Below the pieces are notes generated by a model that was given only the letters and a program-made list of their open reading frames with translations, was not told where the DNA came from and made no database searches. Source: Sphingobacteriia bacterium (GTDB taxonomy: Bacteria; Bacteroidota; Bacteroidia; Chitinophagales; Chitinophagaceae). From it: a DNA stretch of 14,504 bases. A program made the translations under genes and the position numbers. The stretch is taken from contig RDYY01000143.1 in the NCBI GenBank assembly GCA_004293505.1, positions 1 to 14,504 on the forward strand, read 5' to 3'. Position 1 is the stretch's first letter, and every line of letters begins with the position of its first letter. Below, piece after piece: positions 1 through 10,042 of the stretch.

Positions 1-538
1 TCAAAATGCTTTCGGGGTGAAATTGCAAGCCTTGCAGGTCATAGGTTTTGTGCTGCAAACCCATGACCCAGCCTGCTTCATCCCTGGCCGTGACTTCCAA
101 CGCAGGTGGCCAGTTTTTTTCGCCCACTACCCAAGAATGGTAACGACCTACTTCCAAAGGCCATTCCAATCCCTTTTGCCAAACCGGCGGATGCGACAAA
201 TTTTCCTTGGCCGGGAAAATGGGTGTTGCCACCCCATGAAATACAGATGTCAAATTGACCAACTCGGCCCCAAAAGCCTGTCCAATGGCTTGGTGCCCCA
301 AGCAAACACCCAGGATGGATTTTTGCGCCGCATAGGCTTCAATCAAAGGCAAGAGCAAACCTGCTTCGGCAGGAATACCTGGTCCTGGAGACAAAATGAT
401 TTTGTCAAATTCAGCTGCTTTTTCCAACGGCAATTCATCGTTGCGAAAAACAGTGACCGATCCAGGCATGATCCATTCCACCAAATGGACCAGGTTATAG
501 GTAAAAGAGTCGTAGTTGTCAAAGACCAAGATTTTCAT
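1..538 (-). CDS. trpG: Anthranilate synthase component II (glutamine amidotransferase), 3' end outside window
   Basis: This class I glutamine amidotransferase subunit makes ammonia from glutamine and passes it to TrpE for anthranilate synthesis in the cytoplasm. The visible 179 residues read MKILVFDNYDSFTYN at the start and show the oxyanion-region motif SPGPGIP (about 50-56), the nucleophile Cys79 in GVCLGHQ, the HG segment near residue 101, and the catalytic His174 and Glu176 in QFHPES just before the left edge. Only about 10-15 residues should be missing. The ATG overlaps the trpE stop as ATGA, which suggests translational coupling. PabA of folate synthesis belongs to the same family, and some bacteria share one subunit between the two pathways. 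The trp-type leader upstream and the TrpE-like partner favour TrpG. The gene is missed by simple start-to-stop ORF listing because its stop lies outside the window. Confidence 0.93.
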   Translation of the reverse strand, partial: MKILVFDNYDSFTYNLVHLVEWIMPGSVTVFRNDELPLEKAAEFDKIILSPGPGIPAEAGLLLPLIEAYAAQKSILGVCLGHQAIGQAFGAELVNLTSVFHGVATPIFPAKENLSHPPVWQKGLEWPLEVGRYHSWVVGEKNWPPALEVTARDEAGWVMGLQHKTYDLQGLQFHPESIL

Positions 539-1962
539 GCTGTTGGTTTGGGGTTCAGTTGGGTGGCTTTTTGCAAGGCTTTGTGCAAAGCACCCAATTT
601 GTTGTTCACTTCTTCCATTTCGGACAAGGGCTGGCTCAAAGCCACCACTCCAGCCCCAGCTTGGGAATACAAGACATTGCCCCTGCTCAAGAAACTGCGA
701 ATCATGATGGCTTGGTTACAAGAGCCATCAAATCCCACAAATCCCAAGGCCCCGCCATAAAAACCGCGTGCATGGGGTTCCAAATCGGCAATGATTTCCA
801 TGGCCCTCACTTTGGGGGCCCCACTCAAAGTTCCCGCAGGAAAAGTTTTGGCCAAAACAGCAAAAGGATTGGTACCTGCTTTTACTTTGCCTTGCACTTC
901 ACTCACCAAATGTATCACGTGTGAATAGTAGTGCACTTGTTTGTAGGCTACCACTTCTACTTCGTCGCAAATGCGGCTCAAATCATTGCGGGCCAAATCA
1001 ACCAACATCACGTGCTCGGCATTCTCTTTGGCATTGGCCAACAAAGCACTGGCCGCTGCTTGGTCCTTGGCATCGTCCCCTGTTCTTTGAAAAGTGCCCG
1101 CGATGGGATGTACCACGGCTTTGCCCTGGGAAACCACCAGTTGCGCTTCTGGCGAGGAGCCCATGATCTTGTAATCACCGTAGTCAAAAAAGAACAAATA
1201 AGGCGAGGGATTGATGTGGCGCAGGGCACGGTACACATTGAATTCATCACCACTAAACCCTTGTTCAAACCGACGGCTCAAGACCACTTGAAAAACGTCT
1301 CCGCGTTGACAATGCTGGATACCCTTTTGTACCATGGCTTGGTAAGCTTGGTCTTGCAAAGCAGACGCTTGTTGGCCCTTGAGTTGAAAAGGGAAGACAG
1401 GAACGTCTTTGCTGCGGATCAGGGTCTCCAACAAAGTCCACTCCGAGGCCAGGCCGGCCAAATGGTTTTCGCAAACAATGATTTCATCTTTGAAATGGTT
1501 AAAGGCAATCACGTATTGATAAAGGCGGTAGCGGACCAAAGGAATGTCAGCAGCAGGCTGGGCAGCTGATTTTTGTTTGTCCATCAAGGGAATGGCATCA
1601 AAGGAAGTATAGCCATACAATCCCAAGGAAAATCCCGTTTCTGGGAGAGTTGTTGTTGGGGTTTCATAAGCCTGCATGTAGTCCCACAAAACATCCGATA
1701 AAAGGCGGTCTTTGGGCCAAGCCAATTTTTCAGGGGCTTCTCCGGGAAATTTTTGTTCCAACTGACCATCGGCCTGCACTTCTATGCCACCAATGGCATT
1801 GACACAAATAAAAGAATAACTGTTGCTGGCAGCTTGGTGATCGGTACTCTCCAACAACAGGGTGTCCCGGAACCTGTCGCGCAAACGCAAATAGATGCCC
1901 ACTGGCGTGTACAAGTCACCCATGAGGCGATGAACGGTAGTTGTAATGTTTTTCTTTTTCAT
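535..1962 (-). CDS. trpE: Anthranilate synthase component I
   Basis: A chorismate-utilising enzyme of 475 residues that converts chorismate plus ammonia to anthranilate, the first committed step of tryptophan synthesis. The N-terminal domain carries LLES (about 36-39), which in known TrpE proteins belongs to the tryptophan feedback site. The C-terminal catalytic domain shows GDVFQVVLSRRF, PSPYLFFF, GSSPE, HPIAGTFQRTGDD, ENAEHVMLVDLARNDL, FPAGTLSGAPKVRAMEI and YSQAGAGVV in the usual order, with no missing block. The ATG at 1962 is chosen over an in-frame TTG three codons upstream. It begins MKKKN and lies 10 bases after the U-tract of the leader terminator. It is followed directly by trpG with a 4-base ATGA overlap. 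Expression is probably set by the Trp-codon attenuator upstream. PabB and isochorismate synthase are relatives, but LLES and the leader point to TrpE. Confidence 0.96.
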   Translation of the reverse strand: MKKKNITTTVHRLMGDLYTPVGIYLRLRDRFRDTLLLESTDHQAASNSYSFICVNAIGGIEVQADGQLEQKFPGEAPEKLAWPKDRLLSDVLWDYMQAYETPTTTLPETGFSLGLYGYTSFDAIPLMDKQKSAAQPAADIPLVRYRLYQYVIAFNHFKDEIIVCENHLAGLASEWTLLETLIRSKDVPVFPFQLKGQQASALQDQAYQAMVQKGIQHCQRGDVFQVVLSRRFEQGFSGDEFNVYRALRHINPSPYLFFFDYGDYKIMGSSPEAQLVVSQGKAVVHPIAGTFQRTGDDAKDQAAASALLANAKENAEHVMLVDLARNDLSRICDEVEVVAYKQVHYYSHVIHLVSEVQGKVKAGTNPFAVLAKTFPAGTLSGAPKVRAMEIIADLEPHARGFYGGALGFVGFDGSCNQAIMIRSFLSRGNVLYSQAGAGVVALSQPLSEMEEVNNKLGALHKALQKATQLNPKPTA

Positions 1963-1972
1963 GAGACACAAT

Positions 1973-1999
1973 AAAAAAACCCCGACCAGGTCAGGGTTT
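1973..1999 (-). terminator. Intrinsic terminator of the trp leader (attenuator stem 3:4)
   Basis: On the minus strand AAACCCTGAC (1999-1990) pairs with GTCGGGGTTT (1986-1977) around a CTG loop. This gives ten pairs including one U-G wobble. The T-run at 1979-1973 follows, in part shared with the stem. It sits between the Trp-rich leader peptide and trpE, with its T-run ending 10 bases before the trpE ATG, so it can only act as a leader terminator. Confidence 0.9.
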
Positions 2000-2028: not shown

Positions 2029-2085
2029 TTACAATCCCCCGAAGGAGTCTGTATGCCACCACCAAATTTGGTTGATTGATTTCAT
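2029..2085 (-). CDS. trpL: trp leader peptide with three tandem Trp codons
   Basis: An 18-codon ORF reading MKSINQIWWWHTDSFGGL and ending in TAA. Its three consecutive TGG codons (2064-2056) sit before the alternative hairpins and terminator that precede trpE, which is the classic arrangement for sensing charged tRNA-Trp by ribosome stalling. The peptide itself is expected to have no function. The stop codon directly follows antiterminator region 2, so a ribosome finishing the peptide would mask it. The ATG lies four bases downstream of the predicted promoter -7 box, leaving essentially no 5' untranslated region. No Shine-Dalgarno sequence is visible. It is far too short for ordinary gene calling. 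Confidence 0.9.
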   Translation of the reverse strand: MKSINQIWWWHTDSFGGL

Positions 2086-2089
2086 GTTG

Positions 2090-2120
2090 CAAATATGGCC
2101 CAGGACCTTGAAAGTGCAAA
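2090..2120 (-). promoter_or_regulatory. Predicted Bacteroidota-type promoter of the trp operon
   Basis: TTTG at 2120-2117 is separated by 19 bases from CATATTTG at 2097-2090. The second box matches seven of eight positions of the TAnnTTTG -7 consensus known for the Bacteroidota primary sigma factor. Transcription should begin within a few bases of the trpL ATG at 2085. The start site is inferred from the motif only. Confidence 0.65.
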
Positions 2121-4877: not shown

Positions 4878-5309
4878 TTATTTTCCCCGCTGGGCTTTTA
4901 CTTCTGCGGCTGTCACCATCGAGGCTTTGTTGCCAAAATGGTTGCGCACATAACTGAGTACATCAGCAATTTGTTGGTCTTTTAAAAAAGCGTGTGATGC
5001 CATGGGATTGCTGTATTCTTCTCCATTGATTTCCATGGGTGTATTCAAACCCTTCAAAACAATCTCGATCAATTTCTTTTTGTCTCCTGTTACCATGGCC
5101 ACCCCTGCCAAAGGAGGATTCATGCGGGGAACGCCTGTACCATCGGCTTGGTGGCAAGACAAACAATATTGCTCATATACTTTTTTGCCACGGGCCAAAC
5201 TTTCCTTGGCAACAGCAGCTGGTTGCGCCGATTTCCAAGACAAAAAACAAAAGACCAGCACCCATGCGCCTACCCATGGTGTTTTGGTGCGAACAAAAGA
5301 AAGAAGCAT
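4878..5309 (-). CDS. Exported class I cytochrome c
   Basis: A small cytochrome c of 143 residues. A hydrophobic N-terminal segment (about 11-24, VGAWVLVFCFLSW) acts as a signal peptide or membrane anchor. The haem site is CLSCH at 49-53, followed by ADGTGVPRMNPPLAG, as in many dehydrogenase-associated cytochromes. The likely axial methionine is Met103 in SNPMASH, and a C-terminal helix reads QIADVLSYVRNHFGN. The ATG at 5309 replaces an upstream in-frame TTG. It starts nine bases after the stop of the PQQ-type sugar dehydrogenase gene, so the pair probably works together: the dehydrogenase oxidises a sugar and passes electrons to this haem in the periplasm. That link is inference from gene order. 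Two bases separate it from hisB downstream. Confidence 0.9.
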   Translation of the reverse strand: MLLSFVRTKTPWVGAWVLVFCFLSWKSAQPAAVAKESLARGKKVYEQYCLSCHQADGTGVPRMNPPLAGVAMVTGDKKKLIEIVLKGLNTPMEINGEEYSNPMASHAFLKDQQIADVLSYVRNHFGNKASMVTAAEVKAQRGK

Positions 5310-5318
5310 GTGCAAGTA

Positions 5319-6563
5319 TTAAGGTTTAAAACTAATTTTCCAAACAGCTCCTTTGTTGTCATCTGACACATAGAGCGAGCCATCAGGTCCCATGGCCAAG
5401 CCACAAGGACGGTATTTGGCCGATCCCAAATTGGTTACTTTTTCCATGCCAGAAAAACCGTTGGCAAAAATTTCCCAAGGTCCAGCAGGTTGCCCATTTT
5501 TCAAGGGTACAAAAGCCACATAAAATCCTTCTTGGTTTTCGGGGGCACGGTTCCAACTGCCATGAAAAGCAATAAAAGCACCGTTTTGGTATTTGGCAGG
5601 AAACTGTTGGCCACTGTAAATCAACAAAGCGTTGGGGGCCATGTGGCCCGGGAAACCCACCAAGGGCTTGGTGGCTTCTGGTACACCAGACTTTTTGCCA
5701 TCGCCCCCAAATTCTGGGTTAAGGATGTATTTGTTTTGAAAATGATCCCAGTGCACATAAGGCCAACCACAGTTGTCTCCTTCTTTTACCCGGTAAAAAG
5801 TTTCTGATGGCAGTTCAGCCCCCCGTTGGCGGTCATACAATTCAGGAAAGTCTTGGTACAAACCATCTCGACCATGCACTGTAATGTAAAGGGCATTCTC
5901 GGCATTGTTCCAATCCAATCCAACACAATTGCGCACACCTGTTACGTATCTCTTTCCCTGCGCATAGGTTTGGTTGGGTTGATCGGCTTTGAACTGCCAA
6001 ATGCCGCCTGCATTTTCCAAAATGGGACAAGGGGTTTGTCCAACCGATCCTTTTTGGCGGTCTTTCTCTTGGCACACATTAGAAGGTGCGCCAATGTTGA
6101 CATAAAGATTGCCTGCATTGTCCAAAGCAATGGATTTGGAAGCGTGTTGGCGCTCGTCGCGCAAATCTTTGACAATGCATTGGGGTTGATCGGTTTGCAC
6201 CAATTCTCCAGCCGCGGTGAGGGCATAACGAAAAACGCTGTTGTTGGAAGATGCATACAGCCAATTGCCCTTAATGGCAATGCCTGTGCCGATGTAGTTG
6301 CCAAAAGCCAGGGTGTCGTCCACTACCCCGTCTTTGTTTTTATCGCGCAAACGCAAAATACCCTTGCCGTTGACCAATCTTTCCAATTTCAGGTAAATGT
6401 CTCCATTGGGGTGAACAGCCAAGTGGCGTGTGCGGCCCAAACTGGTGGCCAGTGTGTTTACTTGAAAACCATTGGGCACAGTAATCTTGACACCAGACTC
6501 CAGGCTTTGACCTTGGCAGCCCAAAGCCAGAAAGACCAAGCAGGTGAAAAGGGTATTTCTCAT
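5319..6563 (-). CDS. PQQ-dependent sugar (glucose/sorbosone) dehydrogenase-like lipoprotein
   Basis: A six-bladed propeller protein of 414 residues in the glucose/sorbosone dehydrogenase family, which oxidises aldoses or related sugars with pyrroloquinoline quinone. A short N-terminal signal ends at Cys16 in FLALGCQGQ, which fits a lipoprotein. Family features include GRTRHLAVHPNGDIYL (43-58), a calcium-loop-like DKNKDGVVDD (74-83), YVTGVRNCVGLDW, GDNCGWPYVHW (262-272), GHMAPNALLIYSG, FIAFHGSWNR (330-339) and RPCGLAMGPDGSLYVSDD. The substrate cannot be told from sequence. It lies 33 bases after hisC and nine bases before the cytochrome c gene, inside what is otherwise a histidine operon. No strong internal promoter is visible in the 33-base gap, so histidine attenuation probably controls it too. 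PQQ synthesis genes are not in the window. Confidence 0.85.
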   Translation of the reverse strand: MRNTLFTCLVFLALGCQGQSLESGVKITVPNGFQVNTLATSLGRTRHLAVHPNGDIYLKLERLVNGKGILRLRDKNKDGVVDDTLAFGNYIGTGIAIKGNWLYASSNNSVFRYALTAAGELVQTDQPQCIVKDLRDERQHASKSIALDNAGNLYVNIGAPSNVCQEKDRQKGSVGQTPCPILENAGGIWQFKADQPNQTYAQGKRYVTGVRNCVGLDWNNAENALYITVHGRDGLYQDFPELYDRQRGAELPSETFYRVKEGDNCGWPYVHWDHFQNKYILNPEFGGDGKKSGVPEATKPLVGFPGHMAPNALLIYSGQQFPAKYQNGAFIAFHGSWNRAPENQEGFYVAFVPLKNGQPAGPWEIFANGFSGMEKVTNLGSAKYRPCGLAMGPDGSLYVSDDNKGAVWKISFKP

Positions 6564-8992: not shown

Positions 8993-9880
8993 TTATAAAA
9001 TCATTTTTTCGATGGGCACCACCAAAATCCCTTGTGCACCCGCTGCTTTCAATTGTTCTATGATGTCCCAAAACTCATTTTCTTTCAACACACTGTGCAC
9101 CGAGCTCCAACCTTCTTGGGCCAAGGGCAAAACAGTGGGGCTCTTCATGCCAGGCAACAGGCCAATGATTTTTTCCAATTGGTCGTTGGGTGCATTCAAC
9201 AAAATGTATTTGTTGTTCTTGGCCTTTTGCACCGATTGAATCCGGAACAAAAGCCTTTCCAGCAGGGCTTCGTGTTGGGCAGTCAGGTTTTTGTTTTTTA
9301 CCAAGACGGCTTGGGATTGTAAAATGGGTTGTACTTCTTTGAGTCCGTTCATGAACAAAGTAGAACCACTGCTGACCAAATCACAAATCACATCGGCCAA
9401 ACCAATACCGGGTGCAATCTCTACACTTCCACTGATTTCGTGGATTTCTGCTTCCACTTTGTTCTGGCGCAAAAAATGGGCCACGATGACAGGATAACTG
9501 GTGGCAATTTTTTTACCCGCCAAATCTTGGGGACCAGCATATTCTTGGTTGCGGGGAATGGCCAAACTGAGCCGGCATTTGCCAAAACCCAGGGGGGCTT
9601 GGGTCAGGATGTTTTTTTGTTTTTCGGCCACCACGTTTTCACCCACAAATCCAATGTCGGCCACGCCGTCTTCTACGTATTGGGGAATGTCGTCGTCGCG
9701 CAAGAAATACAGCTCCAAAGGAAAATTCAACGCCTCGGCTTTGAGTTTATTGACGCCATTGCTGATGTCAATGCCGCATTCCTTTAACAAGCGCATGGAA
9801 TCTTCGTGCAGGCGGCCAGATTTTTGGATGGCCAGTTTTAAAACAGTGTTGGTTTTTGTCAAAGCATTTGTGTTTGTCAT
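8993..9880 (-). CDS. hisG: ATP phosphoribosyltransferase, long form
   Basis: The first enzyme of histidine synthesis, joining ATP and PRPP, with 295 residues from ATG 9880 (MTNTNALTKTNTVLKLAIQKSGRL). At this length it is the long form, with a C-terminal regulatory domain of about 75-80 residues (VLLNAP-type KYILLNAPNDQLEKI near 224-238, MKSPTVLPL near 245-253, GAQGILVVPIEKMIL at the end). In known long-form enzymes this domain binds histidine and needs no HisZ. The catalytic part has DIGFVGENV (75-83) and the PRPP loop EIAPGIGLADVICDLVSSGSTL (154-175). An in-frame TTG at 9943 is rejected because it would start upstream of the terminator hairpin. The ATG lies 16 bases after the leader terminator T-run, so transcription depends on attenuation. 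Confidence 0.96.
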   Translation of the reverse strand: MTNTNALTKTNTVLKLAIQKSGRLHEDSMRLLKECGIDISNGVNKLKAEALNFPLELYFLRDDDIPQYVEDGVADIGFVGENVVAEKQKNILTQAPLGFGKCRLSLAIPRNQEYAGPQDLAGKKIATSYPVIVAHFLRQNKVEAEIHEISGSVEIAPGIGLADVICDLVSSGSTLFMNGLKEVQPILQSQAVLVKNKNLTAQHEALLERLLFRIQSVQKAKNNKYILLNAPNDQLEKIIGLLPGMKSPTVLPLAQEGWSSVHSVLKENEFWDIIEQLKAAGAQGILVVPIEKMIL

Positions 9881-9896: not shown

Positions 9897-9931
9897 AAAA
9901 CAAAAGAGCTTACCAGTTGGGTAAGCTCTTT
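9897..9931 (-). terminator. Intrinsic terminator of the his leader (attenuator stem 3:4)
   Basis: On the minus strand AAAGAGCTTACC (9931-9920) pairs perfectly with GGTAAGCTCTTT (9914-9903) around a CAACT loop, giving twelve pairs. It is followed by TG and TTTT (9900-9897). It lies between the His-rich leader peptide and hisG, 16 bases before the hisG ATG. Confidence 0.92.
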
Positions 9932-9952: not shown

Positions 9953-10006
9953 TCACCTACCCGAGGGGCAATAAAAATGGTGGTGGGCGTACAGGTTATT
10001 TTTCAT
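9953..10006 (-). CDS. hisL: his leader peptide with three tandem His codons
   Basis: A 17-codon ORF reading MKNNLYAHHHFYCPSGR and ending in TGA. The tandem CAC CAC CAT codons (9985-9977) precede alternative hairpins and an intrinsic terminator in front of hisG, so it should act as a sensor of charged tRNA-His through ribosome stalling. Only three His codons are present, fewer than the seven in the E. coli his leader. The ATG is four bases downstream of a perfect TAnnTTTG promoter box, so translation probably begins at or within a few bases of the transcript 5' end. No Shine-Dalgarno sequence is visible. The codons double as the left arm of hairpin 1:2. Confidence 0.9.
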   Translation of the reverse strand: MKNNLYAHHHFYCPSGR

Positions 10007-10010
10007 GCTG

Positions 10011-10042
10011 CAAAGCTAAGCGGCTAATTTATTTCACCCAAA
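10011..10042 (-). promoter_or_regulatory. Predicted Bacteroidota-type promoter of the his operon
   Basis: TAGCTTTG at 10018-10011 matches the TAnnTTTG -7 consensus exactly. TTTG at 10042-10039, inside a longer T-run, lies 20 bases upstream and fits the -33 element. The inferred transcription start falls at or within a few bases of the leader-peptide ATG (10006). The start site is inferred from the motif only. Confidence 0.72.

Follow-up and report, generated by a model that had tools for sequence, protein, structure and literature searches.

The leader of the Corynebacterium glutamicum ilvBNC operon is said to have been described in a paper of 2000 as formed without a ribosome-binding site. 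According to the available parts of two other reports, leaderless attenuator peptides occur as trpL1, trpL2, leuL1, leuL2, ilvL, metL and thrL in Streptomyces lividans and as the ilvB leader in Corynebacterium diphtheriae (PMC8079986, PMC5784534). For Bacteroidota, no account of leaderless attenuator peptides was found in a literature search whose coverage left out most subscription papers and also the supplementary tables of start sites. To our knowledge, the ribosomes of this phylum make no use of Shine-Dalgarno sites. Short 5′ untranslated regions (UTRs) and leaderless mRNAs are a small minority in Bacteroidota: the accessible parts of the sources give 5.5% leaderless for Flavobacterium psychrophilum (PMC9723704), approximately 3.7% of UTRs shorter than 10 bases for Bacteroides thetaiotaomicron, and 87% of leaders longer than 10 bases for Flavobacterium johnsoniae. 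The trp and his leaders described here, from a genome of the family Chitinophagaceae (the host genome), look on our analysis like the published leaderless attenuator peptides, in a phylum with few leaderless mRNAs.

The trp and his leaders of the window

Two biosynthetic loci are found on the minus strand of the window, i.e. the whole stretch of 14,504 nucleotides that was analysed: the beginning of a trp operon, with trpE and then a trpG-like gene, and a his cluster consisting of hisG, hisD, hisC, two other genes and hisB (Table 1). The HisG, HisD, HisC and HisB models scored over their own cut-offs, and the best TrpE model scored under its cut-off. The genes that separate hisC from hisB (window 4878–6563, minus strand) encode a cytochrome c and a glucose/sorbosone dehydrogenase-like protein. 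The nearest named relatives of HisG are from Chitinophagaceae (Sediminibacterium, Segetibacter, Chitinophaga, Flavihumibacter and others), a placement that we take as given where the record title is silent.

An open reading frame of 18 codons containing WWW (MKSINQIWWWHTDSFGGL) lies upstream of trpE, and one of 17 codons containing HHH (MKNNLYAHHHFYCPSGR) lies upstream of hisG. The original prediction had claimed a −7 box ending four bases before each leader ATG and a TTTG −33 element 19 or 20 bases above it. Direct reading of the minus strand confirmed both, with 19 bases for trp and 20 for his. A terminator is also present between each leader and the first gene of its operon. The spacing between the −33 and −7 elements in both leaders is that of promoters of the Bacteroidota primary sigma factor (TTTG / TAnnTTTG), with one unfavourable base in each −7 box. 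In the trp box the first position of TAnnTTTG is C, and the his box has G where G almost never occurs in F. johnsoniae promoters, as described in the available part of the source. On both strands together, the trp and his leaders are the only two occurrences of NANNTTTG-N4-ATG in the window, with 0.45 expected from base composition.

Table 1 Features of the trp and his leader regions in the window.
Feature	Position	Strand	Basis and remarks
trpE	538..1962	−	Best model trpE_most, 406 bits, under the cut-off of 517.7
trp intrinsic terminator	1973..1999	−	−12.8 kcal/mol
trp leader peptide gene (MKSINQIWWWHTDSFGGL, then stop), predicted start at most about 2 bases from the RNA 5′ end	2029..2085	−	Sequence; ATG 2085–2083
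UCGGGG, trp leader segment able to pair with the terminator 5′ arm	2037..2042	−	Sequence; 2042–2037 complementary to CCCUGA (1996–1991) of the terminator; own duplex −10.2 kcal/mol
CATATTTG, trp promoter −7 box	2090..2097	−	Read from sequence; followed by CAAC and the leader ATG (2085–2083)
TTTG, trp promoter −33 element	2117..2120	−	Read from sequence; 19 bases upstream of the −7 box
hisG, first gene of the his operon	8999..9880	−	TIGR00070, 190.8 bits, above the cut-off
his intrinsic terminator with T-rich tail	9897..9931	−	−16.2 kcal/mol
his leader peptide gene (MKNNLYAHHHFYCPSGR, then stop), predicted start at most about 2 bases from the RNA 5′ end	9953..10006	−	Sequence; ATG 10006–10004
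GGGUAGG, his leader segment able to pair with terminator CUUACCC (9925–9919)	9956..9962	−	Own duplex −7.9 kcal/mol
TAGCTTTG, his promoter −7 box	10011..10018	−	Read from sequence; followed by CAGC and the leader ATG (10006–10004)
TTTG, his promoter −33 element	10039..10042	−	Read from sequence; 20 bases upstream of the −7 box

The accessible parts of the published work place the TAnnTTTG box at −12 to −5 in F. psychrophilum (PMC9723704) and give a distance of 4 or 5 bases from box to start in many F. johnsoniae promoters. Combined with a spacer of four bases, these distances would put +1 on the A of the ATG or up to two bases to either side. Both leader start codons are thus predicted to coincide with the RNA 5′ end or to lie a few bases from it at most. 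The imperfection of both boxes would also fit ordinary leadered attenuators, in which the true start is at a promoter further upstream and the match near the ATG arises by chance or marks a minor promoter. Against this explanation, the 300 bases upstream offer few alternative core boxes: the sole other match at the trp leader is the −33 region itself (AAATTTTG), and the two at the his leader are both far off.

No Rfam family reached its gathering threshold anywhere in the window. Trp_leader (RF00513) scored 19.6 bits at the trp leader, below its gathering cut-off of 41. The His leader family was absent among the matches at the his leader at E values up to 5, and the weak matches at both leaders were far below their cut-offs.

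Box-to-ATG spacing in the Chitinophagaceae

Among 98 genomes of the family, a HisG match was found in 76 and 74 loci were read, those of G083 and G090 being left out as partial genes. TrpE-like matches were found in 72 genomes (hand count) and 70 were read, leaving out G095 (split gene) and G101 (contig edge); the remaining, weaker TrpE-like matches look like paralogues. A His-run leader was present in 69 of the 74 his loci and a Trp-run leader in 68 of the 70 trp loci. One of the five his misses (G135) has merely 93 upstream bases and is uninformative. The core box NANNTTTG is located 4–8 bases before the ATG in 44 of the 68 trp leaders and 32 of the 69 his leaders. These counts are probably low, since the start rule, which takes the 5′-most ATG no further than 22 codons from the run, puts some starts in the wrong place, e.g. 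that of the trp leader of G079.

The box-to-ATG distance of the 68 trp leaders is 4 (3 leaders), 5 (5), 6 (7), 7 (26), 8 (3), 9–17 (5), and 28 or more (9), with no box in 10. By eye, eight leaders of the last two groups have a box ending in TTCG at exactly 7. For the 69 his leaders the distances are 4 (15), 5 (4), 6 (1), 7 (7), 8 (5), 9 (6), 10 (10), 14–20 (16), and 35 (1), and four have no box. Of the 26 trp leaders with a spacing of 7, 20 have G at the predicted +1 and 16 have GCA as their first three bases; judging from these sequences, the trp transcripts of the family should typically begin GCA-AUG. By the same kind of prediction, 48 of the 69 his transcripts should begin 0–6 bases before the start codon. 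The predicted UTRs in the family are mostly 0–4 bases (about 3) for trp, 0–6 or 10–16 bases for his, and more than 10 bases for ilv. In family leaders with a spacing of 7 or 10, the predicted +1 did not as a rule fall on a near-cognate start codon.

The original prediction had taken the identical spacing in the two operons as a hint of a selected design. In its strictest form, TTTGCARCATGAAA would be a single special trp/his module with a selected spacing of four bases, and it is indeed found in both operons of the host genome. The same trp/his spacing is true of the host genome and untrue of its relatives. In the same-genus genome G144 the spacing is 7 in both operons, and in the family a spacing of 4 is found in 3/68 trp leaders, where the mode is 7, and in 15/69 his leaders, which are spread over 4–10 and 14–20. 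Box preferences also differ between the operons, the commonest trp −7 box being CATATTTG (18/49) and the his leaders preferring TATTTTTG. In addition, TAnnTTTG-N4-ATGAAA is present at other genes of the host genome. The string TANNTTTGNNNNATGAAA occurs seven times in that genome, compared with once for a reversed control; one of the seven sites is the his leader, and longer reading frames begin at most of the other six, so that the string is not special to attenuators. We therefore abandoned the claim of a shared design and regard the special module as highly improbable; a fixed four-base module shared by trp and his operons is contradicted by the family survey. Sites of the form TAnnTTTG-N4-ATGAAA at L001, L002, L003, L005, L006 and L007 of the host genome mostly open frames of 129–336 codons and are candidate leaderless mRNAs.

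In the family, 41/49 trp leaders and 45/64 his leaders have a TTTG −33 element above the box at a spacer of 17–21 bases (means after shuffling, 1.5 and 1.8). Position 1 of the −7 box is C in 30/49 trp leaders and T in 61/64 his leaders. The box-to-ATG distance equals 1 modulo 3 in 39/64 his and 30/49 trp leaders, and predicted UTRs tend to multiples of three. This pattern could come from start codons shifting in frame relative to a fixed promoter; the counts include shared ancestry.

The close spacing of box and ATG in these attenuated operons is above chance. When the 45 upstream bases were shuffled, the mean number of leaders with a box at 4–8 was 0.90 for trp (observed 44/67, the trp leader of G072 being left out for its short upstream sequence) and 0.87 for his (observed 32/69). 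Among ordinary genes with a free upstream region in 400 kb of G144, 6/176 have a core box at 4–8. At gyrB, a start was located in 29 of 30 family loci, and none of these has a core box within 20 bases; the nearest one lies at 44–51 in 14 loci and at 28 in one, and 14 have none within 60 bases. These enrichment comparisons ignore shared ancestry; nearly all of the family genomes are from different genera.

Shared ancestry in the enrichment tests leaves room for an explanation in which the short 5′ end is real but functionless, UTRs having shrunk by drift where Shine-Dalgarno sites are not used and the shortness having been inherited. The wide variation of his spacing in the family and the phylum would be expected from such drift. 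The trp leaders argue the other way, since their spacing is held at 4–8 in 44/68, nearly all from different genera, and both ordinary genes and ilv leaders differ from them. On balance, drift is a serious possibility, which we place somewhat short of an even chance.

A further hint in favour of near-leaderless starts is a base preference near the start codon that differs between leaders with short and long spacing. In F. johnsoniae, A at −3 is a Kozak-like signal, according to the accessible part of the source. Among his leaders, A at −3 is found in 84% of the 32 with a box at 9–20 versus 19% of the 32 with a box at 4–8, and among trp leaders in 60% of the five with a box at 9–20 versus 16% of the 44 with a box at 4–8. 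The value for ordinary G144 genes is 36% of 176, with starts called crudely. A box at 4–8 puts the −3 base in the promoter spacer or the first transcribed bases, and position alone may thus explain the missing A.

Other operons and lineages

Branched-chain leaders were sought upstream of ilvD in 30 family loci as ATG-started open reading frames with at least four consecutive I/L/V, and candidates were found in 10 of them (L252 looks spurious); the rule may miss leaders in the other 20. The core box of the candidates is at 15, 18, 19, 19, 25, 28 and 32 in seven and is missing in three, with nothing within 14 bases. Three of them (L233, L235, and L237) have TATATTCG at 17. Long I/V/L runs are seen in the candidate leaders of L229, L230, L231, L233, L235, L237, L251 and L255, e.g. 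MLNRIINNITNNSVIIIVVVIIISVTGGGV (L229). Leader candidates upstream of thrA were found in 11/30 loci, two of them with a core box (at 17 and 35) and the others with imperfect ones; L362 is clipped and L359 was placed 83 bases off.

In 80 named HisG loci, a His-run leader was called by rule in 69, of which a few look spurious. Flavobacterial his leaders mostly have the box at 16–20 (L309, L311, L318, L321, L323, L328, L330, L331, and L332), with L334 (Salegentibacter, box at 8) as an exception. In family f20, which is outside the class of the host, all five His-rich leaders that were read upstream of hisG (L028, L029, L031, L032, and L033) begin with GTG. This codon follows a −7-type box, perfect in two and imperfect in three, by four or five bases. 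Trp leaders with a box at 4–8 recur in several other families, and others have it at 10–21. A class-level trp survey yielded leaders in 14 of 24 new loci, with the core box at 4–8 in six, at 10–13 in three, at 18 in one, at 32 in one, and missing in three. Among the ten misses, L399, L408 and L416 have 169, 54 and 9 upstream bases, respectively, and say little or nothing. Taken together, the other families indicate that short trp 5′ ends are frequent in the phylum and that his 5′ ends depend on lineage.

A near-leaderless start as a rule for all attenuators was rejected, because the ilv candidates of the family are at 15 or more and most of the flavobacterial his leaders that were read are at 16–20. 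Short 5′ ends are instead a tendency of Chitinophagaceae trp and his leaders, not one fixed module. The originally proposed near-leaderless start is supported as an enrichment of boxes at 4–8 in these two groups and does not extend to the ilv leader candidates or to most of the flavobacterial his leaders. The same observations bear on the explanation by ordinary leadered attenuators, which gains from the ilv attenuators and many his leaders outside the family, with UTRs longer than 10 bases. It loses by the recurrence of the box and the −33 element beside the ATG in most trp leaders and many his leaders, and we judge it unlikely for the two loci of the window.

Attenuation and comparison with known systems

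An intrinsic terminator follows the leader in 61/69 his and 58/68 trp loci of the family, with a median start 87 (his) and 94 (trp) bases past the ATG. For the pairing of the leader end (last codons and stop region) with the terminator 5′ arm, the energy is −9.7 kcal/mol in his and −12.8 kcal/mol in trp leaders, compared with −5.4 and −6.7 for shuffled ends. Terminator arms taken from other genomes gave −9.5 (his) and −11.5 (trp) kcal/mol with the leader ends, nearly equal to the own arm, which is evidence of conserved complementarity rather than of covariation. Many trp peptides end in RGL and many his peptides in LP.G or similar, which would be explained if the leader end must pair with the terminator arm.

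Both loci are probably ribosome-mediated attenuators whose sensor peptides are encoded from the transcript 5′ end or from a few bases past it. The imperfect boxes of the host genome, the box at 14–20 in 16/69 his leaders of the family and the distant boxes of the ilv candidates weigh against this reading. At the level of sequence, the boxes, their spacing, the peptides, the terminators and the complementary segments are all in place and recur in the family. Where exactly transcription starts, that translation begins at the 5′ end, and how the operons respond are what we infer, as follows. RNA polymerase would begin on or beside the A of the leader ATG. A ribosome would need no ribosome-binding site to load as the 5′ end emerges, and would then read the Trp or His codons. 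With scarce charged tRNA, the ribosome would stall at these codons, leaving the end of the leader gene free for the terminator 5′ arm, and transcription would continue. With plentiful tRNA, the ribosome would reach the stop codon and cover the pairing segment, and the terminator would form. Synchronised loading of the ribosome on the leader, as in the original prediction, is plausible.

Beyond the attenuator reading itself, we tentatively suggest that trp and his attenuators of Chitinophagaceae have been selected for a 5′-terminal translation start, the trp leaders having settled on pppGCA-AUG. Ribosome and polymerase would then be coupled at a set distance, start codons would shift mainly in threes, and ilv leaders would load ribosomes differently. 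If leaderless attenuator peptides exist here as they do in Actinobacteria and in Sinorhizobium trpL, a 5′-terminal start may suit attenuators generally, given the different sigma factor, the lack of Shine-Dalgarno use and the few leaderless mRNAs of this phylum. The contrast among the predicted trp, his and ilv UTRs within one family also offers a natural comparison for the role of the UTR in attenuation.

The trp and his leaders of Escherichia coli and Salmonella carry a ribosome-binding site in a longer UTR, unlike what is predicted for the Chitinophagaceae leaders. They resemble the latter in their runs of Trp or His codons, competing pairings and terminator (PMC3896937, for his, as far as the available part goes). 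F. psychrophilum belongs to the same phylum, and leader-peptide attenuation has been noted before its amino-acid biosynthesis operons, although the available text does not describe its leaders as leaderless (PMC9723704). The actinobacterial attenuators, in the accessible parts of the reports, share a short peptide with codons for the end product, transcription from the leader start codon, and a terminator or hairpins before the biosynthetic gene. They differ in that their starts were mapped by RNA-seq whereas those reported here are predicted, and in their sigma factor and promoter. Leaderless mRNAs are also common there (17% in S. lividans, according to the part of PMC8079986 available) but a minority in Bacteroidota. 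Finally, trpL of Sinorhizobium meliloti (rnTrpL/peTrpL), as described in the accessible part of its report, belongs to an alphaproteobacterium, and its peptide and RNA act in trans too; like the trp leader of the host genome, it is a Trp attenuator, and its RNA 5′ end begins with the ATG of the leader open reading frame (PMC7298713).
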